A stretch of DNA of 40,069 bases, from the NCBI GenBank assembly GCA_026414805.1, contig JAOAIH010000023.1, forward strand, positions 1-40,069, read 5' to 3'. Below, piece after piece: positions 2,177 to 32,295 of this stretch. This DNA comes from Spirochaetota bacterium. Its GTDB lineage: Bacteria; Spirochaetota; UBA4802; UB4802. The notes below the pieces were generated by a model, which was not told the origin of the DNA, made no database searches, and worked only from the letters and a program-made list of their open reading frames with translations. Each line of letters starts with the position of its first letter. Position 1 is the stretch's first letter. The translations under genes and the position numbers were made by a program.

Positions 2177-2179
2177 ACG

Positions 2180-3523
2180 CTATCCTATCATTATATGATC
2201 TTCAGCATAACGAATATTAATAGTTTTTCTTCGTAAAGTCAATGCTGATATTAATGTCAACGGTCCTAACCTACCTGTATACATAACAATACACAAAATT
2301 ATTCTTTCAATTGGCAATGTTTTTGGAGTTATTCCCATGGATAATCCTACAGTACCAAATGCTGATGTCACTTCAAAAAATGACTGCAAAAATTCACCTG
2401 TTGGTAAAGTTGGGAGAGCTACAAGGATAAATGTGGCAAAAAATATAAACAAACCTGAAACTACAACAAGAGTAATAGCTCTTTCTACATTGTCAAATGC
2501 CAATGCTCTTTCCCAAACTATAATCTGCCGCAAACCTTTTAGCCGTGAAGTTAAAAACAACCACAATATTGCAAATGTACTAGTTTTTACACCACCAGCA
2601 ATTGAACCTGGTGAACCACCAATGAACATAAGAAATATCAATACCAGGCAGGTAGCCTCGCGCAATCCTCCAATATCCACTGTATTAAAACCTGCAGTAC
2701 GTGCAGTAACTGATTGAAAAAAAGATGCTAACAATTTTTCCTTAAAGCTCATATTTTGCAAAATGCCATTGAATTCAAGCACAAAAAAAAGAACCATACC
2801 ACCAGCTATCAACAAAACCGTTGTAAAAAGCACAATACGTGTATGCAACGTTAACGTCTTCCACATTTTATTTATGTTAAGGCTTCTTGAAGTAAACAGT
2901 TCGCTCATTACTAAAAAACCAATGCCACCCAAAATAATATCAACAGCAATACTTATTACAACAATGCTATTGCTATTATAATCCATAAGGTTATTGCTGA
3001 ATGTTGAAAATCCTGCATTACAGAAGGCAGAAATTGAATGAAACACTGAATGCCACACAGCATCAGGCAAAGGGAATGTTTTAATAAATTGTGTAAAAAG
3101 GATGATTGCAACTATCGATTCAATAGTAAATGTATAAATAACAATTCTTCCAAGAATATTCCTTATGGGAAGCTTTGATACTTCGCTGTACATATTTTGG
3201 AGTGTAAAACGCCATTTAATGGAAACACTTCCACCCATGAGCGATAGCAAGGCAACTGAAAATGTCATAATTCCCAGTCCACCTAACTGTATCAGCAGTA
3301 TAATTACAACCTGTCCAATAAATGTAAAATCCTTTGCTGTATCAAGAACTACTAGGCCGGTAACGCATACAGCAGAGGTTGAGGTAAATAACGCATCAAT
3401 GAAAGTAATAGTTTTGTTAGTGCAGATTGGGAGGCAGAGTAAAAAGGCTCCAGCAAAAATTAATACAATAAAGCTCAAAAGGACCTTATCAATAGGCGAA
3501 AGATATTCCTGTGGCTTTTTCAT
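2180..3523 (-). CDS. ktrB: Trk/Ktr potassium transporter membrane subunit
   Basis: This is the K+-translocating subunit, an integral membrane protein of four M1-P-M2 repeats. All four selectivity-filter loops are visible: CVTGLV, FCNAGFS, ARTAGFN and GTVGLS, each with its central glycine. I start at the ATG at 3523 (protein begins MKKPQEYLSP, 447 aa). The longer frame from 3547 would begin with a GTG inside the hairpin at 3538-3556. No good Shine-Dalgarno sequence precedes 3523, so the start is not certain. It partners with KtrA just downstream; the tRNA-Val gene lies 41 nt upstream of the chosen start. Confidence 0.93.
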   Translation of the reverse strand: MKKPQEYLSPIDKVLLSFIVLIFAGAFLLCLPICTNKTITFIDALFTSTSAVCVTGLVVLDTAKDFTFIGQVVIILLIQLGGLGIMTFSVALLSLMGGSVSIKWRFTLQNMYSEVSKLPIRNILGRIVIYTFTIESIVAIILFTQFIKTFPLPDAVWHSVFHSISAFCNAGFSTFSNNLMDYNSNSIVVISIAVDIILGGIGFLVMSELFTSRSLNINKMWKTLTLHTRIVLFTTVLLIAGGMVLFFVLEFNGILQNMSFKEKLLASFFQSVTARTAGFNTVDIGGLREATCLVLIFLMFIGGSPGSIAGGVKTSTFAILWLFLTSRLKGLRQIIVWERALAFDNVERAITLVVVSGLFIFFATFILVALPTLPTGEFLQSFFEVTSAFGTVGLSMGITPKTLPIERIILCIVMYTGRLGPLTLISALTLRRKTINIRYAEDHIMIG

Positions 3524-3537
3524 ATACTTATAAAATA

Positions 3538-3556
3538 GGGTATACACTGTATACCC
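3538..3556 (-). terminator. Hairpin after tRNA-Val, possible weak terminator or processing site
   Basis: The sequence 3538-3545 (GGGTATAC) is perfectly complementary to 3549-3556 with a 3-nt loop. On the reverse strand it sits 8 nt after the tRNA 3' end and is followed by TATTTTATAAG, a modest U-rich tail. On the forward strand it is followed by TTCTTTTTT, but no forward gene enters it. It probably marks the end of the rpsT-hup-tRNA transcript or a tRNA maturation site, and it may shape ktrB translation. Confidence 0.55.
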
Positions 3557-3564
3557 TTCTTTTT

Positions 3565-3637
3565 TGGGCGCTAGAGGATTTGAACCTCTGACCCTCTGCT
3601 TGTAAGGCAGATGCTCTCCCAGCTGAGCTAAGCGCCC
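3565..3637 (-). tRNA. tRNA-Val (anticodon UAC)
   Basis: The reverse strand folds into a full cloverleaf of 73 nt. The acceptor stem is GGGCGCT/AGCGCCC, the D arm GCTC...GAGC, the anticodon stem TCTGC/GCAGA with loop CTTACAA (anticodon TAC), and the T arm AGAGG-TTCAAAT-CCTCT. The discriminator base is A and CCA is not encoded. Its 5' end is only 3 nt after the stop codon of the HU gene, so it is probably cut from the rpsT-hup transcript. Confidence 0.97.
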
Positions 3638-3640
3638 CCT

Positions 3641-3913
3641 TTATCTTTGCTCAATATCAGTGAGCTTGCTTGATTTAAAATCTATTACATAGCGAGAAGG
3701 TATTGTAATCTCTCGCTGCGCAATAGGAGAATATACCTTCCTTTCTGATTGCTTGATTCTTGAAAAAACACCAAAACCTTTAATAGTTACCTTTTCCCCT
3801 TTTTGAACTGATGCTACAATTTCATCAACAAATCCATCAACTATCAGTTGCACTACTTCACGGGGAATACCAAATTTAAGATGTAATCGTGTTATGATTT
3901 CATGTTTGGTCAA
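3641..3913 (-). CDS. hup: HU/IHF-family DNA-binding protein
   Basis: This 90-residue histone-like protein matches the HU/IHF fold throughout: an N-terminal helical dimerisation part (MTKHEIITRLHLKFGIPREVV), then GEKVTIKGFGVFSRIK leading into the DNA-binding arm and a C-terminal helix. The arm sequence differs from the canonical RNPxTG motif: around residues 60-75 it reads VYSPIAQREITIPSRY, so it is a divergent HU. The start is a TTG codon with AGGAG upstream; no in-frame ATG fits. It lies 21 nt downstream of rpsT. Confidence 0.92.
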   Translation of the reverse strand: MTKHEIITRLHLKFGIPREVVQLIVDGFVDEIVASVQKGEKVTIKGFGVFSRIKQSERKVYSPIAQREITIPSRYVIDFKSSKLTDIEQR

Positions 3914-3934
3914 AAAATACTCCTGCCTGCACGA

Positions 3935-4198
3935 TTATAACGCAGCATTAACCTTCTTTGCCAAACGGGATTTCTTACGTGCAGCTGTTTTCCAATGAAT
4001 TATTCCTTTGCGTGCTGCAGTATCTATTTTCTTCACAAATTCTTTGAACAAAGCAGGCACAGCTTCTTTTGACTGACTTTCTAATTGTTTACGCACCTTC
4101 TTTTCAGCAGTTCTGATAGATGATTTGACCTGCGAATTTCGCTGTCTTCGCTTTTGGTTCTGCCTGTTCCTTTTTTCCGCTGATTTTATGTTAGCCAA
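3935..4198 (-). CDS. rpsT: 30S ribosomal protein S20
   Basis: This 87-residue, very basic protein begins MANIKSAEKRNRQNQKRR, the standard S20 N-terminus. It contains the helical region IRTAEKKVRKQLES and ends with KGIIHWKTAARKKSRLAKKVN, as in bacterial S20. It binds 16S rRNA in the body of the small subunit. GAGGG precedes the ATG. It is the first gene of the rpsT-hup-tRNA-Val block. Confidence 0.97.
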   Translation of the reverse strand: MANIKSAEKRNRQNQKRRQRNSQVKSSIRTAEKKVRKQLESQSKEAVPALFKEFVKKIDTAARKGIIHWKTAARKKSRLAKKVNAAL

Positions 4199-4265
4199 TG
4201 TTGTACCCTCGTTACTATATGATTATTGATATAATTGCACTTTTTTAAGGATTTAATGAAATGGA

Positions 4266-12227: not shown

Positions 12228-13514
12228 GTGAAAGAATATGTACCACACATTGGCATGGTAGGCATGAGCCATAAAACGGCTCCGGTTGAAACACGTGAGT
12301 GTTTTGCGTTTGATCCTAACGCACTGGATTTGTTTGTACAAAACGCAAAAGATGCTAATATTCTTGAAATGGTATACATTGCAACCTGCAACAGAATGGA
12401 ATTGTACTATGTTTCTTCAAATATTGAAGAAGCAACTCAATCAGTATTACGGCTTTTAGAGCAATTTGCCGGATTAACCCGTGAACATTTTGAACCAGTA
12501 TTATATAAAAAATATCACAAGGAAGCAGTACGGCACCTGTTATGCGTTGCCTCATCGCTTGATTCAATGGTTGTTGGCGAAAATGAAATTGTTGGTCAAG
12601 TCAAGGAGTGGTACAGGTGGGCAACACAACATAATGCAACAGGTACTATCTTAAATAAGCTATTTCACCAGGCATTCAGAACTGCAAAACGTGTGCGCAC
12701 CCAAACTGAGATTGCTCGCAATCCTTTATCTATTGCATTTATTGCCGTGGAACTTGCAAAGAAAATATTTGAAGATCTTTCCAAACAATCTGTCCTTTTA
12801 ATTGGTGCCGGTGAGATGGCTGAACTTATCTTGAAATACTTAACAAAATTTAAGATTGGATCTATAACACTGGCTAACCGTTCATTACATAATGCTCAAC
12901 GAATTGCCAATGAAATAAACCGTGATGCGACCATAATTACACTTTCAGAAATTATTGAAACTATCCCCACTGTTGATATAATAATAACCTCAACAGGGGC
13001 TCATCACTTTATGTTGACAAAAGAGATGATACAGGAAGCAGTAAAAAAACGTACACAGCCACTTTTTCTTATTGATATTGCCGTTCCACGGAATATTGAA
13101 CCTGCAGCAGGCGCAATACACGATGTATTTCTTTATAACATTGATGATTTAAAATCCATCGCTGATGAAAATCTAAAAAGTCGCCTCAACGAAACTAAAC
13201 TAGCTCTTGAAATGATAGATGCCGATACTGAAGAATTCATGAACTGGTACGATAGCCTGCAGATAGTACCATTAATTACAAAAATACAACAAACCTTTGA
13301 AACTATCCGGAATGAAGAGCTCAAAAAATACCGACGCCGTAAACTCAAGCATTTAGATGATAGCGATTTTGAAATCATCGAAGAGCTCACTCGACAGATT
13401 ATGACAAAGACACTTCATATACCTATTTCGTATATTAAAGAGCTTGGAACTAACTATCACACAAAAGAAGCAAGGGAAAAAGCAAAGCTATTGCGGGAGA
13501 TTTTTAAATTATGA
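12228..13514 (+). CDS. hemA: Glutamyl-tRNA reductase
   Basis: This 428-residue enzyme reduces glutamyl-tRNA(Glu) to glutamate-1-semialdehyde, the first step of C5 tetrapyrrole synthesis. It shows GMVGMSHKTAPVETRE at the N-terminus, the catalytic Cys in ATCNRMELYY, SSLDSMVVGENEIVGQVKEW, the NADPH-binding IGAGEMAELI and a C-terminal dimerisation helix. I take the GTG at 12228 as start, as it gives the normal N-terminus, though its ribosome site is weak. It overlaps ahbD by 4 nt (ATGA), so translation is coupled. Confidence 0.96.
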   Translation: MKEYVPHIGMVGMSHKTAPVETRECFAFDPNALDLFVQNAKDANILEMVYIATCNRMELYYVSSNIEEATQSVLRLLEQFAGLTREHFEPVLYKKYHKEAVRHLLCVASSLDSMVVGENEIVGQVKEWYRWATQHNATGTILNKLFHQAFRTAKRVRTQTEIARNPLSIAFIAVELAKKIFEDLSKQSVLLIGAGEMAELILKYLTKFKIGSITLANRSLHNAQRIANEINRDATIITLSEIIETIPTVDIIITSTGAHHFMLTKEMIQEAVKKRTQPLFLIDIAVPRNIEPAAGAIHDVFLYNIDDLKSIADENLKSRLNETKLALEMIDADTEEFMNWYDSLQIVPLITKIQQTFETIRNEELKKYRRRKLKHLDDSDFEIIEELTRQIMTKTLHIPISYIKELGTNYHTKEAREKAKLLREIFKL

Positions 13515-14566
13515 ATGGCCTTCGCCTTATATTCTGGGAGCTCACAAAGCGCTGTAACCTGCGCTGTGCACACTGCAGAGCTGAAAGCTTTGACAAAGAA
13601 TACATCAATGAACTGACAACTGAACAAATTTGTTCAGTCATTGATACTATTGCCAGTAACTATCGCCCCATTATAGTGTTAACCGGTGGTGAGCCATTAT
13701 ACCGTAAGGATTTATTTGATATTGCACGCTATATACATTTCAAAGGGTTACCGATAGCACTTGCAACCAATGGCACACTTATAGACAATACTATTGCACA
13801 ACAAATCAAAGACGCTGGATTCCAGCGTGTAAGTATTTCCATTGATGGCCCTGATGCACATACCCACGATTCTTTTAGAGGAATACCTGGTTCATTTGAT
13901 AGTGCGCTTAAAGGCGCACAGTTTTTATTTAAAGCGGGTGTTCCATTTCAATTCAATACAACCATCACAAAGCGAAATGTTGCCACTATTGATGCGATAT
14001 TGCAACTTGCCAAAGCCACACATGCTGCTGCGCTGCATGTGTTTATGCTGGTGCCGGTTGGTTGCGGCGTTGAAATTGCTGATACTGATATGCTTTCAAA
14101 AGAACAGTACGAAGAGGTGCTGCGCTCCCTTTACTATAAAACCAAAGAAGCAGGTATTGAATTTAAAGCAACCTGTGCACCACACTACTATCGCATCATA
14201 CGCCAGGAGGCAAAAAAAGAAGGCAGGCAACTTACCTTTGAAACTGATGGGCTTGCAGCAGTGACACGCGGGTGCCTTGCAGGAAGTGGAGTATGCTTTA
14301 TTTCGCACAGAGGCGATGTGCAGCCCTGCGGATATTTACCGATAGTAGCAGGCAATGTATTGCAGACATCATTCAATCAAATCTGGGAAGCCTCCGAGCT
14401 TTTTGCCAATTTGCGCAACCTCAATCATTTAAAAGGTAAATGCGGCATATGTGAATATAAACCATTTTGCGCAGGATGCCGTGCACGTGCCTACTATGAA
14501 ACCGGTGACTATATGGACGAAGAACCTTACTGTATGTATCAGCCAAAGAGGATGTCCAATGTGTGA
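13511..14566 (+). CDS. ahbD: AhbD haem synthase (radical SAM/SPASM)
   Basis: AhbD converts Fe-coproporphyrin III to haem b by radical oxidative decarboxylation in the siroheme-dependent pathway. The radical SAM cluster is C15-x3-C19-x2-C22 (KRCNLRCAHC), followed by LTGGEPLYRKDLF. The C-terminal auxiliary cluster has GCLAGSGVC, QPCGYLP and CGICEYKPFCAGCRARAYYETGDY, which matches AhbD rather than NirJ. The length (351 aa) is normal. It overlaps hemA by 4 nt and the next gene by 8 nt. Confidence 0.92.
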   Translation: MNGLRLIFWELTKRCNLRCAHCRAESFDKEYINELTTEQICSVIDTIASNYRPIIVLTGGEPLYRKDLFDIARYIHFKGLPIALATNGTLIDNTIAQQIKDAGFQRVSISIDGPDAHTHDSFRGIPGSFDSALKGAQFLFKAGVPFQFNTTITKRNVATIDAILQLAKATHAAALHVFMLVPVGCGVEIADTDMLSKEQYEEVLRSLYYKTKEAGIEFKATCAPHYYRIIRQEAKKEGRQLTFETDGLAAVTRGCLAGSGVCFISHRGDVQPCGYLPIVAGNVLQTSFNQIWEASELFANLRNLNHLKGKCGICEYKPFCAGCRARAYYETGDYMDEEPYCMYQPKRMSNV

Positions 14567-15542
14567 TGAGAAGAAACTGTTAAAAACAATACAGATTGAG
14601 GTACCACTTACTCAAAGGCCTTTTAACACAATTGCGCACATGTTAGGCACTTCCGAAGATGAAATACTTTCAACACTTACACGATTAAAAGAACAAAATG
14701 TATTGCGAAGCATTGCAGGTATTTTTAACGCAAAACTATTGGGCTATCAGTCAAATCTGGTGGCGTTTGCAGTACCTGAAAAGTCAATTGAGCAGGCAGT
14801 ACGTGTGATTAATCCTTTACCAGGAGTAAGCCACAACTACCTGCGCGAAGGCGAGTACAACATCTGGTTTACGTTAGCGTTGCCACAAGAAGCTGATTTT
14901 GTTGCATTCGTTGAACGATGTGCCACACAGGCAGGTGCAACAAAATTTAATATTTTCAAAGCGGACAAAATGATAAAATTATCTGCACGATTCACTGAAG
15001 ATGACTCCATAAATACAAGCGATATTCAGTTCAATATAAAAACAGGTGAATCCATAGAAATAAATGAAACAGTAAAAAAAACAATACAGGTGTTACAGCA
15101 TGACCTTCCACTTGTTTCTGAACCTTTCAGGGCGATAGTAAATGAGAGAAAGATCCCTATTACAGTAGAAGAGGTTCTTGCAACAGGAACACGCTTGCGT
15201 GATGCCGGCGTGATGCGCTCATACCGTGCAGTGGTGCGACATCATACATTAGGCTACGTTGCTAATGCAATGACCGTGTGGAAAGATAATGGCAATGCAG
15301 AGCACATTCTGCAGGAGTTTTCAAAAGAGCACGCTATTTCACACCTTTATATACGCAGTTCATTGCCTCATCCATGGGAATATCCAATATTTGCAATGGT
15401 TCATGCAAAAAGTGAAGAAGAATTGGCTGATATCATTAAAAGGCTTCATGCAATAGCAGAAACTGATTACAGGAGCTATCGCTCATTAAAAGAATTTAAG
15501 AAGGAACGGGTAAAATATTTTGAGGATTATACGTCATCCTGA
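14559..15542 (+). CDS. Fused siroheme decarboxylase AhbA-AhbB
   Basis: Siroheme decarboxylase removes two acetate carboxyls from siroheme to give didecarboxysiroheme. This 327-residue protein contains two successive Lrp/AsnC-like halves. The first (about 1-160) has the helix-turn-helix-like FNTIAHMLGTSEDEIL, VLRSIAGIFNAKLLGYQ and NYLREGEYNIWFTL. The second (about 175-320) has FRAIVNERKIPITVEEVL, VMRSYRAVVRHHTLGYVANAM and the terminal SLKEFKKERVKYF. In most haem-pathway operons the halves are separate subunits; here they are one chain, as NirDL is in some denitrifiers. I start at 14559, where GAGG stands upstream, not at the earlier in-frame ATG inside ahbD. Confidence 0.9.
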   Translation: MCDEKKLLKTIQIEVPLTQRPFNTIAHMLGTSEDEILSTLTRLKEQNVLRSIAGIFNAKLLGYQSNLVAFAVPEKSIEQAVRVINPLPGVSHNYLREGEYNIWFTLALPQEADFVAFVERCATQAGATKFNIFKADKMIKLSARFTEDDSINTSDIQFNIKTGESIEINETVKKTIQVLQHDLPLVSEPFRAIVNERKIPITVEEVLATGTRLRDAGVMRSYRAVVRHHTLGYVANAMTVWKDNGNAEHILQEFSKEHAISHLYIRSSLPHPWEYPIFAMVHAKSEEELADIIKRLHAIAETDYRSYRSLKEFKKERVKYFEDYTSS

Positions 15543-15558
15543 TAAATATTATGTATAT

Positions 15559-15656
15559 GTCATTATGAGCAGTAATTTCATCTCATCCTGAGCCAAAGGC
15601 AAAGTATTGTGTTGTTCCATTACGAGATTCTTCAGCACTTCGTGCTTCAGAATGAC
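15559..15656. repeat. HSERSEE-type palindromic repeat inside the haem operon
   Basis: The ends GTCATTATGAG (15559-15569) and TCAGAATGAC (15647-15656) are near-complementary, and the inner part carries TCATCCTGAGCC and GAGATTCTTCAGCACTTCGTGCTTCAG. This is the widespread environmental repeat whose translation gives HSERSEES; a better copy is at 32723-32795. It occupies the only sizeable gap (148 nt) of the operon, between ahbAB and ahbC. Confidence 0.75.
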
Positions 15657-15690
15657 ATTGTGAAATTCTATTGTTGATGGAGAATATACA

Positions 15691-16959
15691 ATGATTGATA
15701 TAGGCAAACTGTACTGCGCAGGCTCTTCTACGGGTGATGGGCTACGCTACGGCACAGAAGCAACTGCAGATGCCCACGGCAACAGGCCACACACACGCGT
15801 GGAACTTGCTAGCCAGCGCCGTCCAATTGTGGTGTGGAATGTGACGCGCACCTGCAATTTAAACTGTGTACACTGCTACACTGATTCGCACAACCGCAAA
15901 TACGATGAGCTAACAACAGAGCAAGGTTTAAAGCTTATCGATGATTTAGCTGCGTTTAGTATCCCTTCACTGCTTTTTTCTGGTGGAGAGCCATTAATGC
16001 GCAAAGATCTTTTTACACTTATTGAACGGGCGGCTGATAAAAATATACGCCCTGTGCTTTCTACCAACGGGACACTAATTGACAGGGACAAGGCACGCGC
16101 AATGAAAGATGCAGGCATAGTATATGTGGGCATTAGCCTTGATGGTATGGAGGATGTAAATGACAGATTTCGCGGCGTTGATGGCGCATTTAAAAAAGCA
16201 ATGAAGGGGTTTGAACACTGCATAGCAGTAGGACAGAGAGTTGGACTGCGACTGACATTAACACGACGCAACTTTGAAGACCTACACCGTATCTTTGATT
16301 TTATTGAAAAAGAGGGAATTAACCGCGCATGTTTTTATCATCTAGTGTACTCGGGTCGTGGGGGTAACCTTTTTGCTGATGATTTAACATACTCCCAGCA
16401 GCGGAAAGCACAGGACATCATCATTGAACGTACCAATGACTTTTTTACCCGCGGACTTGACATTAATATTTTAACTGTGGATAATCATGTTGATGGAGTG
16501 TATTTGTATTTAAAGCTTTTGCAAAAAGATGAAAAAAAAGCACACAAAGTAAAAGAACTGTTAACATGGAATGGCGGAGGTGCATATTCAACAGGTGTGG
16601 GAATAGCTAACATTGATTTTGTGGGAAACGTGCACCCCGATCAGTTTTGGCAGGATTATACATTTGGCAATGTGTTAGAGCGCTCATTTGCTGATATATG
16701 GATGGATGAATCAGACCCGCTTATGAAAGGGTTAAAACATAAATCCCACTATATCAAAGGGCGCTGCAGGCTGTGTCAGTATAAATCAATGTGTAATGGT
16801 TCAATGCGAGTGCGCGCATACCGAGTGTTTGGCGATCCGTGGGCACCAGATCCACAGTGCTACCTTACCGACGAGGAAATTGGACTTACAAAAGAAAAAA
16901 TTGATGAATTAAAACAAAGTGGCGAGTATTTTGAAATGCCGTCCGAATTAAAAAACTAG
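15691..16959 (+). CDS. ahbC: AhbC, Fe-coproporphyrin III synthase (radical SAM)
   Basis: AhbC removes two acetate side chains from 12,18-didecarboxysiroheme to give Fe-coproporphyrin III. The N-terminal IGKLYC and GLRYG segments and the phrase RRPIVVWNVTRTCNLNCVHC (cluster cysteines 55, 59, 62) are characteristic. FSGGEPLMRKDLF, VHPDQFWQDYTFGNV and the C-terminal GRCRLCQYKSMCNGSMRVRA...DPQCYLTDEEIG match AhbC more than NirJ or AhbD. The length (422 aa) is slightly above typical. GGAG precedes the ATG. It lies 8 nt before sirC. Confidence 0.92.
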   Translation: MIDIGKLYCAGSSTGDGLRYGTEATADAHGNRPHTRVELASQRRPIVVWNVTRTCNLNCVHCYTDSHNRKYDELTTEQGLKLIDDLAAFSIPSLLFSGGEPLMRKDLFTLIERAADKNIRPVLSTNGTLIDRDKARAMKDAGIVYVGISLDGMEDVNDRFRGVDGAFKKAMKGFEHCIAVGQRVGLRLTLTRRNFEDLHRIFDFIEKEGINRACFYHLVYSGRGGNLFADDLTYSQQRKAQDIIIERTNDFFTRGLDINILTVDNHVDGVYLYLKLLQKDEKKAHKVKELLTWNGGGAYSTGVGIANIDFVGNVHPDQFWQDYTFGNVLERSFADIWMDESDPLMKGLKHKSHYIKGRCRLCQYKSMCNGSMRVRAYRVFGDPWAPDPQCYLTDEEIGLTKEKIDELKQSGEYFEMPSELKN

Positions 16960-16967
16960 GATATGCT

Positions 16968-17609
16968 ATGCTGTATCCAATAATGTATAACATAAAGGGA
17001 AAACGTGTTGTTGTTATAGGCGGTGGTCAGGTTGCATTACGCAAGGTAAAAGATCTGACAAGCGCAGGCGCACACGTTGTGGTGATAGCTCCTTACATTC
17101 ATCATGAGCTAGAAGAATTTGCAGCCACACACACTTCGGTCACTATTGAAAAACGCTCATACCAGTACGGAGATTGCAAAGGTGCTACGTTAGTTTTTTC
17201 TGCAACAAATAATAAAGAGATAAACCGGAAAGTTTTTGATGAAGCTTTAGCATTGAACATTCCCATAAACGCTGTTGATGATCCTGACAATTCATCATTT
17301 TATGTACCATCGTTTTTTACGCGCGGTTTGCTTCTTGTTGCTGTTTCCACTGGTGGTGCTTCTCCGGCTATGGCAGCTAAAGTAAGAAGGCTGATTGAGC
17401 AAAGCATCCCACAGGATATTGAAATAGTGCTTGATGTAATGAATGAAATAAGACGAATCTTAAAACAAGATTTTGCACATCTTGAAGTGACAAAACGAAG
17501 TGATATTCTGAAAGCGATAGCTAATGATGACACACTTGTAGAACAGGCCAAAGAAGCATATAAAAAAAATACCCTGCGTGAATTTTTGAATAAAATGATC
17601 AATAAATAA
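16968..17609 (+). CDS. sirC: Precorrin-2 dehydrogenase (siroheme synthase N-terminal type)
   Basis: This 213-residue NAD-dependent enzyme oxidises precorrin-2 to sirohydrochlorin, and in Met8-like members also inserts iron. It shows LYPIMYNIKGKRVVVIGGGQVALRKV with the dinucleotide-binding glycines, then NAVDDPDNSSFYVPSFFTRGLLLVAVSTGGASPAMA, the family core. There is no CobA methyltransferase domain, so uroporphyrinogen methylase must be encoded elsewhere, as must hemL, hemB, hemC and hemD. It closes the haem operon. Confidence 0.93.
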   Translation: MLYPIMYNIKGKRVVVIGGGQVALRKVKDLTSAGAHVVVIAPYIHHELEEFAATHTSVTIEKRSYQYGDCKGATLVFSATNNKEINRKVFDEALALNIPINAVDDPDNSSFYVPSFFTRGLLLVAVSTGGASPAMAAKVRRLIEQSIPQDIEIVLDVMNEIRRILKQDFAHLEVTKRSDILKAIANDDTLVEQAKEAYKKNTLREFLNKMINK

Positions 17610-21615: not shown

Positions 21616-23478
21616 ATGCAGGAAATTATTGGAACAAGTAACAAGGTCATTGAAGTTGACTTAACTTCACAATCCTACCGCGAAATCCCAATATCCGAGA
21701 AAGACCTAGAATTATATCTTGGCGGCAAAGGATTGGGTTTAAAACTTTTTTACGATAGGGTGCCAGCAGGGATTGACCCTCTTTCTGCGGAAAACGAATT
21801 CATTGTCATGACAGGTGTATATTTGGGTACCGGTGCACCATGTGCTGGACGTTTTGCAGCTGTCACAAAATCGCCATTAACAGGCCTTATGGGAACTGGC
21901 TCTTGTGGAGGACCTTTTGGCATGGCATTAAAAACATCTGGATGGGATGGGCTTATTGTCAAGGGTAAAGCAAAGGCACCAGTGTATATTGTCATAAGTT
22001 CAAAAGGCGTTGAATTCAAAGATGCAAAAAAGCTCTGGGGAAAAGACACGCAGACTGTTCAAAAGGCTCTTGAAAATGAAGGCAGTGGTGCACTTGTCAT
22101 TGGTCAGGCTGGTGAAAACAAAGTGCTCTATGCCAACATTTGTTCTGGACATAGGTTTTTGGGCCGTTGTGGCATGGGTGCAGTATTGGGCTCAAAAAAT
22201 TTGAAAGCGATAGTTGCTAAAGGAAATGAATTCAAAATTTTGCCAAAAAATCCCAAAAAGTTTGATAAAGCGCGCAAAAAAACCCTTAAATTTATAAACC
22301 GAAATCCAATTACCTCGGTATCATACCGCCAGTTTGGGACAAATGCAAATGTGAATCTCAACAATGCTGGAGGATTATTGCCAGTTCGAAATTTTACCGG
22401 CGGTTCGCATGGAGAAGCACATAAACTATCTGGTGAAGAGATGGCTGAACGCTTCGATACTAAATTTTCTACATGTAAGCCATGCGCTATTCTGTGCGGT
22501 CACAAAGGAAACATTGATGGTGAAATCAAGCAGATACCAGAATACGAAACTATCGGAACATTTGGATCTAATTTAGAGATATTTGACCCTGTTGCTGTCA
22601 GCCATTTTAACGAACTATGTACAAAATACGGCCTTGATACAATATCAACTGCCGTCACAATTGCCTGGGCAATGGAAGCTACTGAAAAAGGATTAATCAA
22701 AACTGATCTTAGATTTGGATCACCAGAAAATGTGGCAAAAACAATAACCGATATAGCTTTTAGAAGAGGATTGGGAAATGATCTTGCCAACGGCACCAGG
22801 AAACTATCGCAAAAATATGGCGGAGCAGATTTTGCAATTCAGGTTAAGGGGCTGGAAATGGCTGCCTATGATCCGCGAGGTGCATGGGGACAGGCATTAA
22901 GCTATGCAGTAGCAAATCGTGGCGCCTGCCACCTTTCCACTGCAAGCTTTGCCGTAGAAGTATATCTCAATATGCATGATCCTTTCTCACTTAAAGGCAA
23001 AGGTTCCATGATAGCATTTTTAGAAGATGTTACCTGTGCTATTAATTCCATGCATATATGCCAGTTCACTGCATTTGCAGTAGAACTTGAGCCATTTGTA
23101 GTGAAATATACACCAACATTTCTGCTTAATCCAATGGTAACCTATCTTAATCCAATTGCAACAAAGTTTATGGATGTGAGCCTATGGCCAGAAATGTGGT
23201 CAGGTATTACCGGTAAACCAATGGGAATGTTTAAGTGGATAAAAGCAGGAAGAAGAATCCATGTGCTTGAACGTTATATGAATACCCGAGAAGGCATTTC
23301 ACGAAAAGATGACACCCTGCCGCAGCGATTTTTAACCGAAGGTAGAAACTGCGATCCAAAGCAGCGCACGGTACCATTGGATGAATTGCTGGACAGCTAT
23401 TACAAAGCACGTGGTTTTGACAGCAATGGCATACCAAAAGATCGAACGTTAAAGCGATTAAAAATTGAAAAAAAATAA
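21616..23478 (+). CDS. Aldehyde ferredoxin oxidoreductase family (tungsten/molybdenum bis-pterin)
   Basis: This 620-residue enzyme of the AOR family interconverts aldehydes and carboxylates using ferredoxin-like electron carriers. The N-terminal pterin-binding domain has LYLGGKGLGLKLFYDRVP, GTGAPCAGRFAAVTKSPLTG and SGWDGLIVKGKA. The [4Fe-4S] ligands are C287, C290 and C294 (CKPCAILC), with the fourth expected at C482 in NSMHICQF. The length equals that of typical AORs. GGAG precedes the ATG. It leads a four-gene forward cluster with two iron-ADH homologues, suggesting aldehyde/alcohol/acid interconversion. The aldehyde is not identifiable. Confidence 0.92.
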   Translation: MQEIIGTSNKVIEVDLTSQSYREIPISEKDLELYLGGKGLGLKLFYDRVPAGIDPLSAENEFIVMTGVYLGTGAPCAGRFAAVTKSPLTGLMGTGSCGGPFGMALKTSGWDGLIVKGKAKAPVYIVISSKGVEFKDAKKLWGKDTQTVQKALENEGSGALVIGQAGENKVLYANICSGHRFLGRCGMGAVLGSKNLKAIVAKGNEFKILPKNPKKFDKARKKTLKFINRNPITSVSYRQFGTNANVNLNNAGGLLPVRNFTGGSHGEAHKLSGEEMAERFDTKFSTCKPCAILCGHKGNIDGEIKQIPEYETIGTFGSNLEIFDPVAVSHFNELCTKYGLDTISTAVTIAWAMEATEKGLIKTDLRFGSPENVAKTITDIAFRRGLGNDLANGTRKLSQKYGGADFAIQVKGLEMAAYDPRGAWGQALSYAVANRGACHLSTASFAVEVYLNMHDPFSLKGKGSMIAFLEDVTCAINSMHICQFTAFAVELEPFVVKYTPTFLLNPMVTYLNPIATKFMDVSLWPEMWSGITGKPMGMFKWIKAGRRIHVLERYMNTREGISRKDDTLPQRFLTEGRNCDPKQRTVPLDELLDSYYKARGFDSNGIPKDRTLKRLKIEKK

Positions 23479-23490
23479 TGAGGTGACACC

Positions 23491-24633
23491 ATGATTTCAT
23501 ATAATTTCACTTTTTTAAGTCATCCAAAAATTTGCTCAGGACTTAAAGCGCTTGAGCATATCCCATTTGAATTAGAATCACTCAACGCCCGCAAACCTCT
23601 TGTAATCACATCACCACGCTGGGCTAAAAAAGGATTGGATAAAACATTAGTGAAAGCATTATACGATAGCAACATAACTATAGGTGCACTCTTTACCAAT
23701 GCCCCTCACTATCCAAGTTTGACTATAATCAATGAGCTATCCAAACTATATAGAGATAGAGGCTGCGATTCAATCATTGCACTTGGTTCAGGTGGTATCA
23801 CTCAAATAGCAAAAGCTGTGAATATGGTTGTATCACTGAAAGCTGATATTTTACAATGCACTGAAATTACCATATCATCACCCCTTAAGCCTTTGATATG
23901 TGTTCCTACTGCAGATTGCGAAGGCGGTGAAATGGCATCTGTTGCATATTATGAGCGTTTTGAAAAGCAATCTGATTTCCTCTATCCTGATGTCATTGTT
24001 ATTGATTCACGAATTACCCGCCACGCAACTAAGGAAGAAGTAGCCAACTGTGCGCTCACATCACTTGCACACGCAATTGAAGCATGCGGCATTGAAACAC
24101 CAAACCCCATTAACGACGCATACGCACACACTGCCCTACAATTTATTTATCAATACCTTCCAAAAGCTTTTAAAAGGACATGTAATAAGGATGCAAGTGT
24201 AGCCATTGTTAATGCAGCCGCTTGTGCTGATACTGCATTTTCAAATGCACCACAGGGAATTGTACATACACTAGCGCAGGCGATAGCTAGTGATACTAAC
24301 CTTAAACCCGGAATTGTAATGGGTATACTTCTTCGCCATAGCCTTGCAGCCAAACTGCAAGCTAAAGGTGGAATTCGTCCAGAACTACTCCTTGCCCTTG
24401 CAGGAATTGATACCTACGCAAAAACTCCTGAAAAAGACAGGCAGAAAACTGCGTATGACTATCTCATTACATGTATCAATGTTACAAAAGAGTTTGTTCC
24501 TTCCACATTAAAAGAACTTAAAATTCCTCATTACAAACTCAAAGAATATGCCCTGCTTGCTTCTGCAAAGAATAGGCAGTTTAAAGAAAGTGCATATTTT
24601 GCATTACTGGAAAAATCCTGGGAAGGTAAATAA
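23491..24633 (+). CDS. Iron-ADH paralogue with lost metal and NAD motifs (putative pseudoenzyme)
   Basis: This 380-residue protein aligns over its full length with the intact iron-containing alcohol dehydrogenase at 25220. Family ligands corresponding to FucO D196 and H277 are replaced by T190 and P273, while H194 and H259 remain. The NAD motif GGGSxxD reads GSGGITQ (99-105), and PTTAGTGSE reads PTADCEGGE. The frame is open and the rest is well conserved, so it is not a decaying pseudogene. It may be a structural or regulatory partner of the AOR or the intact ADH, or bind another ligand. It is 12 nt after the AOR gene. Confidence 0.85.
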   Translation: MISYNFTFLSHPKICSGLKALEHIPFELESLNARKPLVITSPRWAKKGLDKTLVKALYDSNITIGALFTNAPHYPSLTIINELSKLYRDRGCDSIIALGSGGITQIAKAVNMVVSLKADILQCTEITISSPLKPLICVPTADCEGGEMASVAYYERFEKQSDFLYPDVIVIDSRITRHATKEEVANCALTSLAHAIEACGIETPNPINDAYAHTALQFIYQYLPKAFKRTCNKDASVAIVNAAACADTAFSNAPQGIVHTLAQAIASDTNLKPGIVMGILLRHSLAAKLQAKGGIRPELLLALAGIDTYAKTPEKDRQKTAYDYLITCINVTKEFVPSTLKELKIPHYKLKEYALLASAKNRQFKESAYFALLEKSWEGK

Positions 24634-24655
24634 ATTTATTCAAAGGAGCAATACT

Positions 24656-25198
24656 ATGAACCTTTTAAATTATCCTGAAATTAAACCTAAAAAGAAATTC
24701 ATTAAGCGCATATACATTGCTGTGATGCTGTGGGTAGTGGGCAGAGCCATTCAGGCTGCTGCAAAGGTTGATAAAGAGGTAAAGGAAGAATTTGAGAAAT
24801 TAAAAGATAATTTTTTATTAAAAATGTGGATATGGCCACATGGTCCTGCAATGTATGTAGGTAAAACAAAAGATGGAAAAGTTAAATACTTAGGATGGAA
24901 AGACAAAGGTTACAAACCCACTTTAACTATGACTATAAAAAGTGTTGAGGCAGCAATGCTTCTGTTTACATTTCAGGAGGCGACAGCAATCGCAACAACT
25001 CGCAACAGATTAGTTGTAGATGGTGATTTACCCGATGCATGTGCTCTGGTAAGGATTTTGAATATCGTGGAAGTATACCTGCTTCCAAAAATTATTGCCA
25101 AGCTGGCTGTGAAACGATATCCAAAATGGTCGCAGATGAATCCTTTCCGAAAACATTTTGGTAGAATATTAATTTATGTTCGTGCATTTACATTCTAA
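24656..25198 (+). CDS. SCP2-like sterol/lipid-binding domain protein
   Basis: This 180-residue protein starts with a basic, partly hydrophobic helix (KKKFIKRIYIAVMLWVVGRAIQAA) that could attach it to the membrane. It continues with an SCP2-like segment: LTMTIKSVEAAMLLFTFQEATAIATTRNRLVVDGDLPDACALVRIL. SCP2 domains bind long-chain or sterol-like hydrophobic molecules. I start at 24656, which has AAAGGAG upstream; the earlier in-frame Met lies within the ADH-like gene. Between two ADH homologues and downstream of an AOR, it hints at hydrophobic alcohol or aldehyde substrates; this is inference. Confidence 0.6.
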   Translation: MNLLNYPEIKPKKKFIKRIYIAVMLWVVGRAIQAAAKVDKEVKEEFEKLKDNFLLKMWIWPHGPAMYVGKTKDGKVKYLGWKDKGYKPTLTMTIKSVEAAMLLFTFQEATAIATTRNRLVVDGDLPDACALVRILNIVEVYLLPKIIAKLAVKRYPKWSQMNPFRKHFGRILIYVRAFTF

Positions 25199-25219
25199 TA
25201 ATTGAAACGAGGTGCAATT

Positions 25220-26470
25220 ATGCAATTACCAGCATATTATGAATTCTGTAACAGAGTTAAAACAATAGTTGGCCACAAGGCCCTGGAACAAATACCACAA
25301 AGTTTAAAAGCAATCAATGCACAAAGACCAATGATAATTACTGATAAAGGTGTTGAACAAGCCGGATTAATAAAAATTGTACTGGCAGCAATGCAAAAAT
25401 CAAAATTAAAAGCTACTGCACTGTTTGACAACGTTCCACCTGACTCAGATGTAAAAGTGGTCAATGAAGTTGCAAAAATTTACAGGTCTAAAAAATGCGA
25501 CTCCATAATTGCAGTAGGTGGTGGTTCAGTACTTGATACCGCCAAAGGTGTTAATATCATTGTATCCGAAAATGCAGCAGATTTAATGCTATTTGCCGGT
25601 TATGGAAACGTTAAACGCAAGTTACGACCCCTTGTTGCTGTACCAACTACTGCAGGGACAGGCTCAGAGGTTACGTCAGTTGCTGTAATTGCCAATCATG
25701 AAAAGAATATCAAAATGGCATTTGGTTCCCTTTTTCTTTTGCCAGATATAGCAATTATTGACTCACGTATGACCAAAACACTGCCACCGGCAATTACCGC
25801 ATTTACTGGAATGGATGCTCTCACCCACGCTGTGGAAGCATACTTCTGCTTAGCAAAAAATCCACTCAGCGACACCACCGCTTTAGCTGCTATTCAGCTA
25901 ATAGCTCAGAATTTAGTCAATGTGGTTAAAAAGCCTTCAGATCTTGACGGCAGACTTGCACTGGCACTTGCTTCCAACCTGGCTGGAATGGCATTTTCCA
26001 ATTCAATGGTTGGCATGGTTCATAACATAGGGCATGCTATTGGTGGTGTATGTGGTGTTCCACATGGCGTATGTATGAATATTCTCCTGCCCTATGGTCT
26101 TGAATATAATATGCATAAAGCTTCACAGTATATTGGTGAATTGTTGTATCCTCTTGCTGGTGAAGATGTGTATAATAAAACACCTAAGAAGGATAGGCCA
26201 TTAAAGACAGTAGAATACATCCGTAAACTCATACAGGATTTACACGACGCAACTGATGGCAAACACCCTCGCTTCCTTAAAGAAGTATACGATAGAAATG
26301 GCAATCCGATGATTCCAAAAGAAAAACTTCCTGATATTGCTAAAACAGCCATGAGCGACCCTGCTCAATTCTATAATCCCGAGGACCTTGATTATAATGA
26401 TTATATAATGGTCCTTGAGGCAGCATGGGAAGGAATTCCGCTTGACAGGAAGAAAATTAAAAAGGGTTAA
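25220..26470 (+). CDS. Iron-containing alcohol dehydrogenase (group III)
   Basis: This 416-residue NAD(P)-dependent alcohol dehydrogenase has all family residues: NAD motif GGGSVLD at 100-106, PTTAGTGSEVTS, and the four metal ligands D199, H203, H268 and H282 (GMDALTH, GMVHNIGH, PHG). It carries an extended C-terminus of about 30 residues beyond the usual core. The start ATG at 25220 follows GAGGTG; a TTG at 25202 is less likely. It is the last gene of the AOR cluster and the probable functional partner of the degenerate paralogue at 23491. Confidence 0.93.
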   Translation: MQLPAYYEFCNRVKTIVGHKALEQIPQSLKAINAQRPMIITDKGVEQAGLIKIVLAAMQKSKLKATALFDNVPPDSDVKVVNEVAKIYRSKKCDSIIAVGGGSVLDTAKGVNIIVSENAADLMLFAGYGNVKRKLRPLVAVPTTAGTGSEVTSVAVIANHEKNIKMAFGSLFLLPDIAIIDSRMTKTLPPAITAFTGMDALTHAVEAYFCLAKNPLSDTTALAAIQLIAQNLVNVVKKPSDLDGRLALALASNLAGMAFSNSMVGMVHNIGHAIGGVCGVPHGVCMNILLPYGLEYNMHKASQYIGELLYPLAGEDVYNKTPKKDRPLKTVEYIRKLIQDLHDATDGKHPRFLKEVYDRNGNPMIPKEKLPDIAKTAMSDPAQFYNPEDLDYNDYIMVLEAAWEGIPLDRKKIKKG

Positions 26471-28786: not shown

Positions 28787-29428
28787 ATGGCTAAGAATTT
28801 AAACGTTATTGAAGCAATTAATGTACGTTATAGTAAACTTGCAACCACAAGTTGTTGCCTTTCATGTGGTGGTGCATTAAATCACGCTAATCCACAATGT
28901 GGCGAAGTGTGTGTTGATTTGGGTAGCGGTCGAGGAACTGATGTTTTACGCATGGCTGATGCAGTAGGTAAAACTGGGTTTGTGTATGGCATTGACATCT
29001 CTGATGGCATGATATCCACTTCACAGGAGCTATCGAACAAATTTGGATATACTAATGTTGCATTTATTCAATCTGACCTTGCAACCATTCCTCTTGCTGA
29101 TAATACTGCCGACCTGATTATTTCAAACTGCACAATAAATCATGCTCAGGATAAGCAAAAGGTATTTAATGAAATTTACCGTATTCTTAAACCCGGCGGC
29201 AGGTGCATCATTAGTGATATTTATTCTATTGGACAGGTTCCGGATGAATATAAGAATGACCCTGATGCTGTTGCTGAGTGCTGGGCTGGAGCCATTCCTA
29301 AAGATGAATATGTGGCCATCATAGCAAATGCAGGGTTCAGTGATATTGAGATTCTTGAAGAAAGTACACCTTACCAAAAAGGTAAAATTCACGTTGCAAG
29401 TTTTACGTATAGGATTATAAAAAAATAA
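28787..29428 (+). CDS. ArsM-like SAM methyltransferase
   Basis: This 213-residue class I SAM methyltransferase has VDLGSGRGTDV (SAM motif I) and GIDISDGM. It also has the arsenite-methyltransferase hallmarks SNCTINHAQDKQKVF (C115) and AVAECWAGAIP (C165), matching the two As(III)-binding thiols of ArsM, and an N-terminal SCCLSCGG (C23, C24, C27). It is shorter than typical ArsM (about 260-280 aa), ending soon after the core. The ribosome site is weak. It is followed after 30 nt by a tiny Cys-containing gene and a radical SAM maturase. It may methylate As(III), but a role in modifying the peptide or a thiol ligand cannot be excluded. Confidence 0.8.
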   Translation: MAKNLNVIEAINVRYSKLATTSCCLSCGGALNHANPQCGEVCVDLGSGRGTDVLRMADAVGKTGFVYGIDISDGMISTSQELSNKFGYTNVAFIQSDLATIPLADNTADLIISNCTINHAQDKQKVFNEIYRILKPGGRCIISDIYSIGQVPDEYKNDPDAVAECWAGAIPKDEYVAIIANAGFSDIEILEESTPYQKGKIHVASFTYRIIKK

Positions 29429-29458
29429 TCCAGTTAATTTACTATATGAGGTGTTTAC

Positions 29459-29551
29459 ATGAAGTCACTTGTTGCACAAAAGGATAACTCTGTGACCATA
29501 GCACAGTGTTGTGCAAAAATCTCACCAATCGTTGCAGGTTGCCACGATTAA
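29459..29551 (+). CDS. 30-residue cysteine-containing peptide, putative RiPP precursor
   Basis: The reading frame encodes 30 residues: a 16-residue polar leader-like part (MKSLVAQKDNSVTIAQ) and a C-terminal CCAKISPIVAGCHD with C17, C18 and C28. GAGGTG is 6 nt upstream of the ATG, the strongest ribosome site in this operon, and the frame ends with TAA. It lies 30 nt after the ArsM-like gene and just before a stable hairpin and a radical SAM/SPASM gene. That is the usual position of a ribosomally made, modified peptide. It is not a known family to me. An alternative is a small thiol peptide that binds a metal(loid) without modification. Confidence 0.7.
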   Translation: MKSLVAQKDNSVTIAQCCAKISPIVAGCHD

Positions 29552-29560
29552 TCTATGCAA

Positions 29561-29593
29561 CCACCTGTTATTGGTAGCACCAGTAACAGGTGG
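29561..29593 (+). promoter_or_regulatory. Strong intercistronic RNA hairpin between peptide gene and radical SAM gene
   Basis: CCACCTGTTA (29561-29570) pairs perfectly with 29584-29593, and the stem continues through a U-G pair into TGGT/ACCA with an AGC loop, giving about 15 base pairs in 33 nt. The following bases (GACAACTTTAC) are not a U-tract, so it is not a classical terminator. It starts 9 nt after the peptide stop codon and ends 26 nt before the maturase ATG. Such a stem would let the short peptide mRNA be more abundant than the enzyme mRNA. Confidence 0.8.
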
Positions 29594-29619
29594 GACAACT
29601 TTACAAACAAGGTATAACT

Positions 29620-30969
29620 ATGCGCTTATCACACTACACAATTATCAGCAAGCTGTATGATGGAGACAACTATTGCATACTAAATCCGTTAACAAAACAG
29701 GCCGACATCATTACCGGCTTGGAAATGGAGCAGATCATTTCTGGTACCTTTGACCAAAAGCTTCTTAAACAAAAGGGCTATGTTCTAACAGAGGATGAGG
29801 AAAAGCTGCTTTACCGCAGTGCGTATTTGGATTTTTTAGATATGCGCGACAACTCAGAGGTGCAGATCTTTTTTGTACCCTGGTATGCATGCAATTTTGC
29901 CTGTTCTTATTGCTATCAATCAGGATATGAGCACGCATCTGGCTTGCTATCAAAAGAAGTTATTGATGCTTTTTATGGCTATATTACCACACAAATACAA
30001 AAACCAAAATATATTACTCTTTTTGGCGGTGAACCATTACTTGAATCATCACATGCAAAGGAATTAATTTCCTACTTTATTGAAAAAGCTAATAATTACG
30101 GATTGTCATTGGCGATAGTTACCAATGGATATACCCTCAGTTCATATATTGCTACTCTTAAAAAAGCATCAATCCGCGAAATTCAAGTAACACTTGATGG
30201 AACTGAAGAAGTGCACAACGCACGCAGGTATACACACACAAAAGCACCAACATTTGAGGCGATAGTAACCGGAATAGATGTTGCGTTGTCAGAAAATATC
30301 CCCATTAACTTACGAGTTGTTGTTGATGCCCAAAACATAAACAATCTTCCAAAGCTTGCCCAATTTGCCATTGATAGAGGATGGACAAAGAATCCATTAT
30401 TTAAAACACAAATTGGCAGAAATTATGAACTTCACTCTTGTCAGGCAGACAACGCAAAACTTTTTGACAGAGCATCCCTCTATGAAAAAATATATGCACT
30501 GATTATACAACACCCCTATATTTTGCAATTCCATAGACCTGCATTTTCAATAAGCAAATTCTTATTTGAAAATGGCACTATGCCACATCCTCTGTTTGAT
30601 GCATGTCCAGGGTGCAAAACCGAATGGGCTTTTGATTACACCGGCACAATATACCCATGTACTGCAATGGTGGGCAAAAAAGGTGAAGACGTTGGTACAT
30701 TTTATCCTGAAATTTCACTGAATCACGATTATATAAAAGAATGGCAGAACCGCGATATTACCACAATAGAACAGTGCAAGCAATGCGAAAAAAGCTTACT
30801 GTGCGGTGGTGGCTGCGCTGCACTTGCCAAAAATAAAACAGGTCAAATACTTAGCCCTGATTGCAGGCCACAAGATCAATTGCTGTCAATGGGCATTTCA
30901 CTGTATTTTGAAAAAGGCATTACACACGATGGCTATTCTCATACATCAAGTTGTAATTGCTTACGCTAA
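29620..30969 (+). CDS. Radical SAM/SPASM peptide maturase
   Basis: This 449-residue protein has an N-terminal domain of about 80 residues of the kind that often binds leader peptides. The radical SAM motif is C91-x3-C95-x2-C98 (ACNFACSYC), with GGEP at 136-139. The SPASM region has C329, C332, C347, C386, C389, C395, C399 and C415, enough for two auxiliary [4Fe-4S] clusters, and the tail ends SCNC (C445, C447). This architecture is that of anSME-like and RiPP-maturing enzymes that make thioether, C-C or epimerised products. I start at 29620 (AAGG upstream), because the longer frame begins inside the hairpin. The obvious substrate is the 30-residue peptide just upstream. Confidence 0.88.
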   Translation: MRLSHYTIISKLYDGDNYCILNPLTKQADIITGLEMEQIISGTFDQKLLKQKGYVLTEDEEKLLYRSAYLDFLDMRDNSEVQIFFVPWYACNFACSYCYQSGYEHASGLLSKEVIDAFYGYITTQIQKPKYITLFGGEPLLESSHAKELISYFIEKANNYGLSLAIVTNGYTLSSYIATLKKASIREIQVTLDGTEEVHNARRYTHTKAPTFEAIVTGIDVALSENIPINLRVVVDAQNINNLPKLAQFAIDRGWTKNPLFKTQIGRNYELHSCQADNAKLFDRASLYEKIYALIIQHPYILQFHRPAFSISKFLFENGTMPHPLFDACPGCKTEWAFDYTGTIYPCTAMVGKKGEDVGTFYPEISLNHDYIKEWQNRDITTIEQCKQCEKSLLCGGGCAALAKNKTGQILSPDCRPQDQLLSMGISLYFEKGITHDGYSHTSSCNCLR

Positions 30970-30999
30970 CATCATTATTATTACTATAAGGAGAACACA

Positions 31000-32295
31000 A
31001 TGAGTGGAAGAATTAAGTATATCAATGCATCACAATATGAAGAAGTAGTATTAAAGGGTAACAGTGTTATTGTAGATTTTTATTCTACAGAATGCCCGCC
31101 ATGTGAAGCGCTGGCAGCAAAATTTGAGCCACTCAGCGAAATTTTTGGCAACGACATAACATTTATAAAAATATTTAGACAGGAAAACCGCCAATTAGCT
31201 CAATCCTTAGGGATACTGTCATCCCCTACTGTATTATTTTACAAAAATGGTTTGGAAGTAGGCACACGTCTGTCGGGGAGCATAAAACGCTCTGAACTTT
31301 TAGACAATATAAAGCTATTATTACCTGAAAGCAGGTTTAATCAGTTACTATCGCACATACAACCCGTCACCACTTATACTGATATTCTTATTCTGGGAGC
31401 TGGTCCTGCCGGTTTAACTGCAGGTATTTATGCTGCGCAGGCTAAATTAAAAACTATCATCGTGGACACTCAACTTCCTGGAGGACAGGTGCAGACTACG
31501 CATATGGTTTCCAACTATCCTGGTTTTGCCAAACCCATCGAAGGATTTATGCTAATGCATTACATGAGTGAGCAGGCTAAAGAAGCAGGGTGCCAATATA
31601 GAGTTGCTGTTGACGTTACTAGCATAAACCTTAAAGAGAAATATATCATAGTAGACGGGATTGAAACAATATACGCAAAAAAGATAATTCTTGCCACAGG
31701 GTGCAGCTATCGCCAACTCAATGTTCCCGGCGAAGTAGAATACAAGGGCAAAGGCATTTCGTACTGTGCAACATGTGATGCAAAATATTATCAGGACAAG
31801 CATGTAGTTGTGATTGGTGGCGGGAATTCAGCTATTGAAGAGTCACTGTTCATTGCCAAATTTGCACGTGCCATAACAATAGTACATCAATTTGATAAAC
31901 TGCAGGCAAATAAGGAAGCACAGGAAAAAGCATTTGCCAATGAAAAAATATCATTTATGTTTTCCCATGAACCACGGGCATTCATAAAAAATGCTGATGA
32001 CAGTATGACAGTTGAAGTTGAAAATGTGAAAACCGGAAATCGTTCAACAATACTATGTGATGGCGTTTTCATTTTTGCAGGAATGAAACCCAATATTATA
32101 CATGATGACCTGGAAAATATAAATGGATACCTGATAACTGATGAATATATGCACACATCAATTCCCGATGTATTTGCTGCAGGAGATATTCGTTATAAAC
32201 CATACAGACAGATTACAACTGCTGTATCTGACGGAACCGTTGCTGCAATCACCGCGGTTAAGGAACTAGAAGAAGCCACAGTTGTAGCTAAGTAA
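31000..32295 (+). CDS. Thioredoxin-thioredoxin reductase fusion protein
   Basis: This 431-residue protein joins two complete enzymes. Residues 1-110 are a thioredoxin fold with C32-P-P-C35 (ECPPC instead of WCGPC). Residues 125-431 are a thioredoxin reductase, with FAD motif GAGPAGLTAG, the redox pair C256-A-T-C259, NADPH motif GGGNSA and AGDIRYKPYRQI. The thioredoxin-first order differs from the Mycobacterium leprae fusion. It is 30 nt after the radical SAM gene with GGAG upstream, so it belongs to the operon. It could reduce the cysteines of the peptide or supply thiols to the ArsM-like enzyme. Its stop abuts the convergent lipoprotein gene without a spacer. Confidence 0.92.
   Translation: MSGRIKYINASQYEEVVLKGNSVIVDFYSTECPPCEALAAKFEPLSEIFGNDITFIKIFRQENRQLAQSLGILSSPTVLFYKNGLEVGTRLSGSIKRSELLDNIKLLLPESRFNQLLSHIQPVTTYTDILILGAGPAGLTAGIYAAQAKLKTIIVDTQLPGGQVQTTHMVSNYPGFAKPIEGFMLMHYMSEQAKEAGCQYRVAVDVTSINLKEKYIIVDGIETIYAKKIILATGCSYRQLNVPGEVEYKGKGISYCATCDAKYYQDKHVVVIGGGNSAIEESLFIAKFARAITIVHQFDKLQANKEAQEKAFANEKISFMFSHEPRAFIKNADDSMTVEVENVKTGNRSTILCDGVFIFAGMKPNIIHDDLENINGYLITDEYMHTSIPDVFAAGDIRYKPYRQITTAVSDGTVAAITAVKELEEATVVAK

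Follow-up and report, generated by a model that had tools for sequence, protein, structure and literature searches.

We analysed a stretch of 40,069 nucleotides (nt) from a Spirochaetota bacterium (NCBI GenBank assembly GCA_026414805.1, contig JAOAIH010000023.1, positions 1 to 40,069 of the forward strand; hereafter the window), which contains a candidate cassette for a ribosomally synthesised and post-translationally modified peptide (RiPP). The cassette comprises four forward-strand genes: an ArsM-type S-adenosylmethionine (SAM) methyltransferase (28787..29428; 213 amino acids, aa), a precursor-like peptide gene (29459..29551; 30 codons, 30 aa), a radical SAM/SPASM enzyme (29620..30969; 449 aa counted from the ATG at 29620, with a GTG at 29590 as alternative start), and a fusion of thioredoxin (Trx) and thioredoxin reductase (TrxR; 31000..32295; 431 aa). 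The intergenic gaps are 30, 68 and 30 nt, in agreement with an initial annotation of this DNA that had described four consecutive forward genes spaced about 30 to 70 nt apart. The end of a chemotaxis-receptor gene lies 259 nt upstream, and the opposite strand carries a gene immediately downstream, so that the unit has exactly four members in the window. Promoter and terminator scans gave little above chance. The same annotation had regarded the genes as an undescribed RiPP-type operon, a view that is supported by the recurrence of the peptide, the co-occurrence of the parts and the RiPP-maturase type of the radical SAM enzyme.

The window peptide (MKSLVAQKDNSVTIAQCCAKISPIVAGCHD) has its cysteines at C17, C18 and C28, as first read, and its gene is preceded by an AGG-containing Shine-Dalgarno-like site. 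It is built from a variable leader followed by the core AQCCAKxSx4GCHD-stop. A search with the radical SAM protein in one genome per species yielded 80 loci, and a homologous short frame lies between the methyltransferase gene and the radical SAM gene in most of these loci and in related genomes. All 85 peptides, which stem from at least five phyla, end with AQCC[A/S]KxSx4GCHD-stop (A, Q, C, C, K, S, G, C, H and D without exception), the invariant cysteines being placed at -14, -13 and -3 from the C-terminus. Because this invariant C-terminus recurs beside the same enzyme in 82 loci, the short frame is not a product of chance, and a conserved short frame does accompany the homologous radical SAM genes. 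Among four congeneric genomes the core showed a synonymous difference (pS) of 0.547 versus a nonsynonymous difference (pN) of 0.013, indicating strong purifying selection, and the leader had a pN of 0.198. Judged by these patterns, the short frame codes for a protein, with a C-terminal core that is functional and a leader that is less constrained. The 16-residue core is virtually invariant, and for this reason a conserved cellular function is favoured over that of a fast-evolving antibiotic. No NCBIfam or Pfam model matched the peptide convincingly when 23 peptides were scanned. An extra cysteine pair (CGC, CC or CAC) occurs in the leader of 29 of the 85 peptides, mostly in Paludibacter and other Bacteroidales.

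Since the loci had been found via the radical SAM protein, whole genomes were searched with each cassette part separately. Strong radical SAM orthologues are present in 12 of 59 related genomes; the peptide profile was recovered in the same 12 genomes and in none of the 47 others, and the cassette-type methyltransferase again in the same 12, the remaining matches being canonical ArsM or distant methyltransferases with at most 44% identity. The full-length Trx-TrxR fusion is confined to cassette-bearing genomes and was detected in 11 of the 12 (the twelfth, G021, has its cassette at the end of a 3.5-kilobase (kb) contig), and the other 47 genomes possess at most an ordinary thioredoxin reductase without a Trx domain. 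A sample of 247 Bacteroidia contained the peptide in three genomes and the radical SAM gene in the same three. These counts are phylogenetically non-independent (the 12 cassette genomes represent eight genera), and there was no exception in either direction in either sample. According to the labels of the metagenome-assembled genomes, the cassette occurs in at least five phyla (Spirochaetota, Bacteroidota, Ignavibacteriota, Elusimicrobiota and Bdellovibrionota), so that a peptide of the C17/C18/C28 type and Trx-TrxR do recur in unrelated genomes next to radical SAM genes of the same subfamily, as the initial annotation had anticipated. Across 82 loci, the median gaps are 64 nt between methyltransferase and peptide, 76 nt between peptide and radical SAM gene, and 67 nt between radical SAM and TrxR genes. 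Gene order varies and content is constant: the TrxR gene lies upstream of the rest in L059 and L099, the peptide has moved along with the methyltransferase in the broken-up cassettes of G059 and G060, and in that of G055 it is found 1.9 kb upstream of the Trx-TrxR gene. Three loci that seemed to lack a peptide (L010, L093 and L097) were rejected as such, their genomes having the peptide elsewhere, and in L080 and L095 the contig end cuts the locus off just ahead of the radical SAM gene. The same-genome co-occurrence and the conserved short frame support the earlier proposal that the peptide serves as substrate for the radical SAM/SPASM enzyme, which we consider very probable.

The radical SAM enzyme carries C91, C95 and C98 (CX3CX2C), the ligands of the radical SAM cluster, and eight cysteines in the SPASM region, all of which are kept in at least 85 of 88 relatives; an additional near-invariant cysteine, C274, lies in the motif GRNYELHxC ahead of the SPASM region. 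The eight SPASM-region cysteines had been recognised at the outset together with a CxC tail, but the tail, although present in the window protein, was rejected as a functional feature and carries no weight because the family (88 relatives) does not conserve it. The AlphaFold2 model of the enzyme reached a mean pLDDT (predicted local distance difference test) of 86.6 and a pTM (predicted template modelling score) of 0.86. In this model the N-terminal 78 residues form a three-strand, three-helix domain (pLDDT about 90-95) resembling a RiPP recognition element (RRE), and the enzyme is thus predicted to carry a leader-binding-like domain. Among solved structures, CteB (5wgg, E 1.9e-18), a protein that has an RRE domain, gives the best fold match for the entire chain. 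For all 36 radical SAM members the best-matching models were RiPP-maturase models; bit scores refer to the window protein only, for which the best NCBIfam models, all of them RiPP maturases, gave 92-128 bits versus cut-offs of 340-600, and no NCBIfam model reached its cut-off. Because the CteB fold and RiPP-maturase models match best and the scores are far below the cut-offs, the enzyme is, as far as profiles and the predicted fold can tell, one that works like a peptide maturase outside any named maturase family, and the window protein is not a member of a characterised family with another substrate. The Trx-TrxR gene was likewise correctly identified as a true fusion, with the motif CPPC at residues 32-35 of the Trx part and CATC at 256-259 of the TrxR part.

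The methyltransferase (METHYLTRANSFERASE) has ArsM and AS3MT as its nearest solved proteins by sequence (phmmer, 1e-21 to 8e-25), and in a fold search (Foldseek) ranks 1-13 were all ArsM/AS3MT, with E down to 1.7e-19. Its best NCBIfam match is ArsM PRK11873 (197.6 bits, under the cut-off of 263); the models for arsinothricin ArsM and arsenosugar ArsM gave 109 bits (cut-off 500) and 83 bits (cut-off 400). Residues C27, C115 and C165 are in register with C72, C174 and C224 of CmArsM, the ligands of trivalent arsenic, As(III), and are conserved in 76, 79 and 80 of 80 methyltransferases, respectively. The initial annotation, which had credited the enzyme with both ArsM cysteines, was right about their presence but not about their number, since all three are there. 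The N-terminal CC of ArsM is also kept. Clade-specific features include an N-terminus CCLSCGGA, the motifs SNCTxNH and ECWAGA, and the residues H119 and W166 (L and I/V/S, respectively, in canonical ArsM). Compared with canonical ArsM the cassette enzyme is shorter, about 35 N-terminal residues and C-terminal sequence being gone, and the cassette methyltransferases form a clade of their own apart from canonical ArsM (22 sequences, support 99/97; 93/82 with the divergent L011). No selenocysteine variants of the N-terminus were seen, CCLSC being present in 62 of 63 sequences and ACLSC in one. About half of the cassette methyltransferases elsewhere terminate in a CxC-type tail.

We suggest that the four genes probably work together as a single functional unit for the production and servicing of a small modified peptide of the RiPP type. 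The unit, the peptide family, the co-inheritance, the folds and the conserved residues were computed; from them we infer recognition of the leader, the chemistry of the individual steps and any involvement of a metalloid, in a scheme of four steps. First, the radical SAM/SPASM enzyme would recognise the basic leader M[K/R][S/T][L/V]xxK through its RRE-like N-terminus. Second, the core AQCCAKxSx4GCHD would be modified by the radical enzyme, whose nearest relatives make thioether or similar bonds from cysteine, so that a bond of this kind is most likely; that the modification is a thioether in the strict sense we regard as an even chance. Third, the ArsM-type enzyme would use SAM to methylate a soft atom that the peptide cysteines hold. 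Since this enzyme retains the full set of three metalloid-ligand cysteines of ArsM, the leading acceptor would be a trivalent metalloid bound to thiols, for example As(III), and peptide sulfur would be the alternative; participation of a metalloid in the cassette, a possibility raised by the initial annotation, is conceivable, though short of probable. Fourth, the Trx-TrxR fusion would use NADPH to reduce disulfides formed on the peptide and the methyltransferase. In its most far-reaching form the proposal is that As(III) sits on the C-terminal cysteines of a ribosomal peptide and is methylated by the ArsM-type enzyme and/or bonded to the peptide by the radical enzyme; the product would be an organoarsenical RiPP or a peptide-based organometalloid cofactor maintained by Trx-TrxR. 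This version is speculative and rather doubtful; if true, it would be the first ribosomal peptide to carry a metalloid. Because the unit is only about 3.5 kb long, a peptide-borne arsenic or other soft element is directly testable by heterologous expression.

The following observations count against this scheme, the first two of them against its metalloid part. A separate canonical ArsM is also encoded in five cassette genomes (G000, G001, G003, G004 and G055). Queries with Acr3 and ArsC revealed ars genes adjoining the cassette in one of about 90 loci, namely G055, where an ArsR-ArsM-Acr3-ArsC operon adjoins it; a general link of the cassette to ars operons was rejected beyond this genome, ArsB and ArsP not having been searched. 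Acr3 is encoded at some place in all 12 cassette genomes but also in 30 of the 47 others, a weak excess that is confounded by phylogeny and suggestive at best. Finally, genes for thioredoxins, rhodanese-type proteins, flavin adenine dinucleotide (FAD) oxidoreductases, DUF302, DUF1847 and DUF6132 are common neighbours in Bacteroidota, and this sulfur and thiol-redox setting would also fit a thiol or persulfide role.

Some of these points could be accommodated by a RiPP without a metalloid, in which the ArsM fold would have been re-purposed for a peptide methyltransferase (cysteine S-methylation, or methylation of a side chain or the C-terminus) and Trx-TrxR would keep the substrate thiols reduced. 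The separate clade of the methyltransferase with its shortened N-terminus and its clade-specific H119 and W166, the additional canonical ArsM in five genomes and the lack of a positional tie to ars genes all agree with such a role, but the three As(III) ligands, for which a plain peptide methyltransferase would have no need, persist in nearly all members across at least five phyla; we think this explanation rather unlikely. Lower still we place a chaperone or detoxification function, by which the unmodified three-cysteine peptide would bind As(III) or trivalent antimony, Sb(III), and deliver it to the methyltransferase, the radical enzyme serving some other step. Three invariant cysteines would suit a site for trivalent arsenic, the methyltransferase retains its arsenic ligands, and both the Acr3 distribution and the operon in G055 are compatible with it. 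However, the core residues Q, K, S, G, H and D vary no more than the cysteines do, which is beyond the need of metal binding, ordinary arsenic efflux already exists in the cassette genomes (and canonical ArsM in several of them), and the co-inherited CteB-like maturase would be left unexplained; a chaperone is unlikely. Equally improbable, in our judgement, is a thiol-redox or persulfide peptide, i.e., a modified peptide acting as a small carrier of electrons or sulfane sulfur that is reduced by its own Trx-TrxR. The reductase is indeed dedicated to the cassette, the Bacteroidota neighbours include thioredoxins, rhodanese-type, FAD disulfide oxidoreductase, DUF302 and OsmC-like genes, and a DsrE-type gene lies directly upstream in G047, but such neighbours are lineage-specific, being mostly absent from the loci of Spirochaetota, Elusimicrobiota and Bdellovibrionota, and no clear role would remain for the ArsM-type enzyme. 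It is very improbable, and already largely refuted by the sequence, that the cassette is simply a ranthipeptide or bacteriocin cluster from one of the described families (CefB, PapB, SCIFF, Clo7bot or geopeptide type), for although models of these types score best and CteB is the best fold, the maturase scores lie so far under the cut-offs that we rejected each assignment, the peptide fits no model and is without their cysteine patterns, and no exporter or protease recurs among the identifiable neighbours.

The neighbour clusters that could be identified include no recurrent protease or exporter, so the product may act inside the cell. A MarR-type regulator gene precedes the cassette in several Spirochaetota and in the Bdellovibrionota locus. 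In 25 loci, mostly of Bacteroidota (e.g. L032, L048 and L072), a divergent upstream gene encodes an IS1595-type zinc-ribbon protein of about 145 aa that stands alone, with no transposase catalytic part seen, and may be a regulator, not a mobile element. Elsewhere in the window, positions 12228-17609 hold a likely alternative haem biosynthesis cluster, with glutamyl-tRNA reductase, AhbD-like and AhbC/NirJ1-like radical SAM proteins and a CysG N-terminal-type protein; the AhbD-like protein scored 482 bits against a cut-off of 500, and a gene at 14451-15542 was assigned an AhbAB-like regulator fold by eye only. Positions 21616-26470 encode, in this order, an aldehyde ferredoxin oxidoreductase-like protein, an ErcA-like iron alcohol dehydrogenase, a conserved protein of unknown function and a second iron alcohol dehydrogenase-like protein, and part of this gene order is kept upstream of the cassette in a related genome (L021).

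The cassette is undescribed in the libraries searched, having no name in Pfam, NCBIfam or the open-licence literature. Literature queries on the enzyme combination, the compound type and the motif AQCCAK returned nothing matching among open-licence papers, and a description outside these is possible. A survey of Bacteroidales RiPPs names neither thioredoxin nor arsenic and, for the few Paludibacteraceae genomes that it covers, lists no radical SAM cluster (PMC10352776). The cassette is most likely of the radical SAM RiPP type; categorically new chemistry is possible but unproven. It resembles the thioether-forming radical SAM/SPASM maturases of ranthipeptides (CteB/SCIFF and PapB type) in a predicted RRE-like N-terminus, the radical SAM core and auxiliary clusters, in a whole-chain fold that best matches 5wgg and in the Cys-containing precursor gene adjoining the maturase gene. 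It differs from them, however, in an identity of 17% over the aligned fold, scores far below all NCBIfam cut-offs, a different precursor, the added methyltransferase and Trx-TrxR, and the extra C274. CefB (NF038107), the maturase of peptides with a cysteine at every fifth position, is the top-scoring NCBIfam model and matches end to end, but the cassette maturase obtained 127.8 bits versus a cut-off of 600, and its precursor has three invariant cysteines, not one per five residues. With ArsM/AS3MT the methyltransferase shares the fold, the three As(III)-ligand cysteines and the N-terminal CC in register, whereas it is truncated at both ends, forms its own clade, carries the motifs SNCTxNH and ECWAGA and scores below the ArsM cut-off. 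In arsenosugar synthesis, an ArsM-type enzyme works with the radical SAM enzyme ArsS on arsenic. A 702-aa fusion of a radical SAM protein and an ArsM-type methyltransferase, resembling fused arsenosugar ArsS-ArsM, was seen separately in L118 (genome G014, 2110-4218, minus strand). A precedent for the proposed scheme is arsinothricin biosynthesis (arsQML), in which a radical SAM enzyme and ArsM yield an organoarsenical (PMC8552651). Both arsQML and arsenosugar ArsM/ArsS differ from the cassette in having no precursor peptide and another type of radical SAM enzyme, and the cassette is without an efflux permease. The cassette would join CteB-like peptide modification and ArsM-type methylation, a pairing unreported in the searchable literature.

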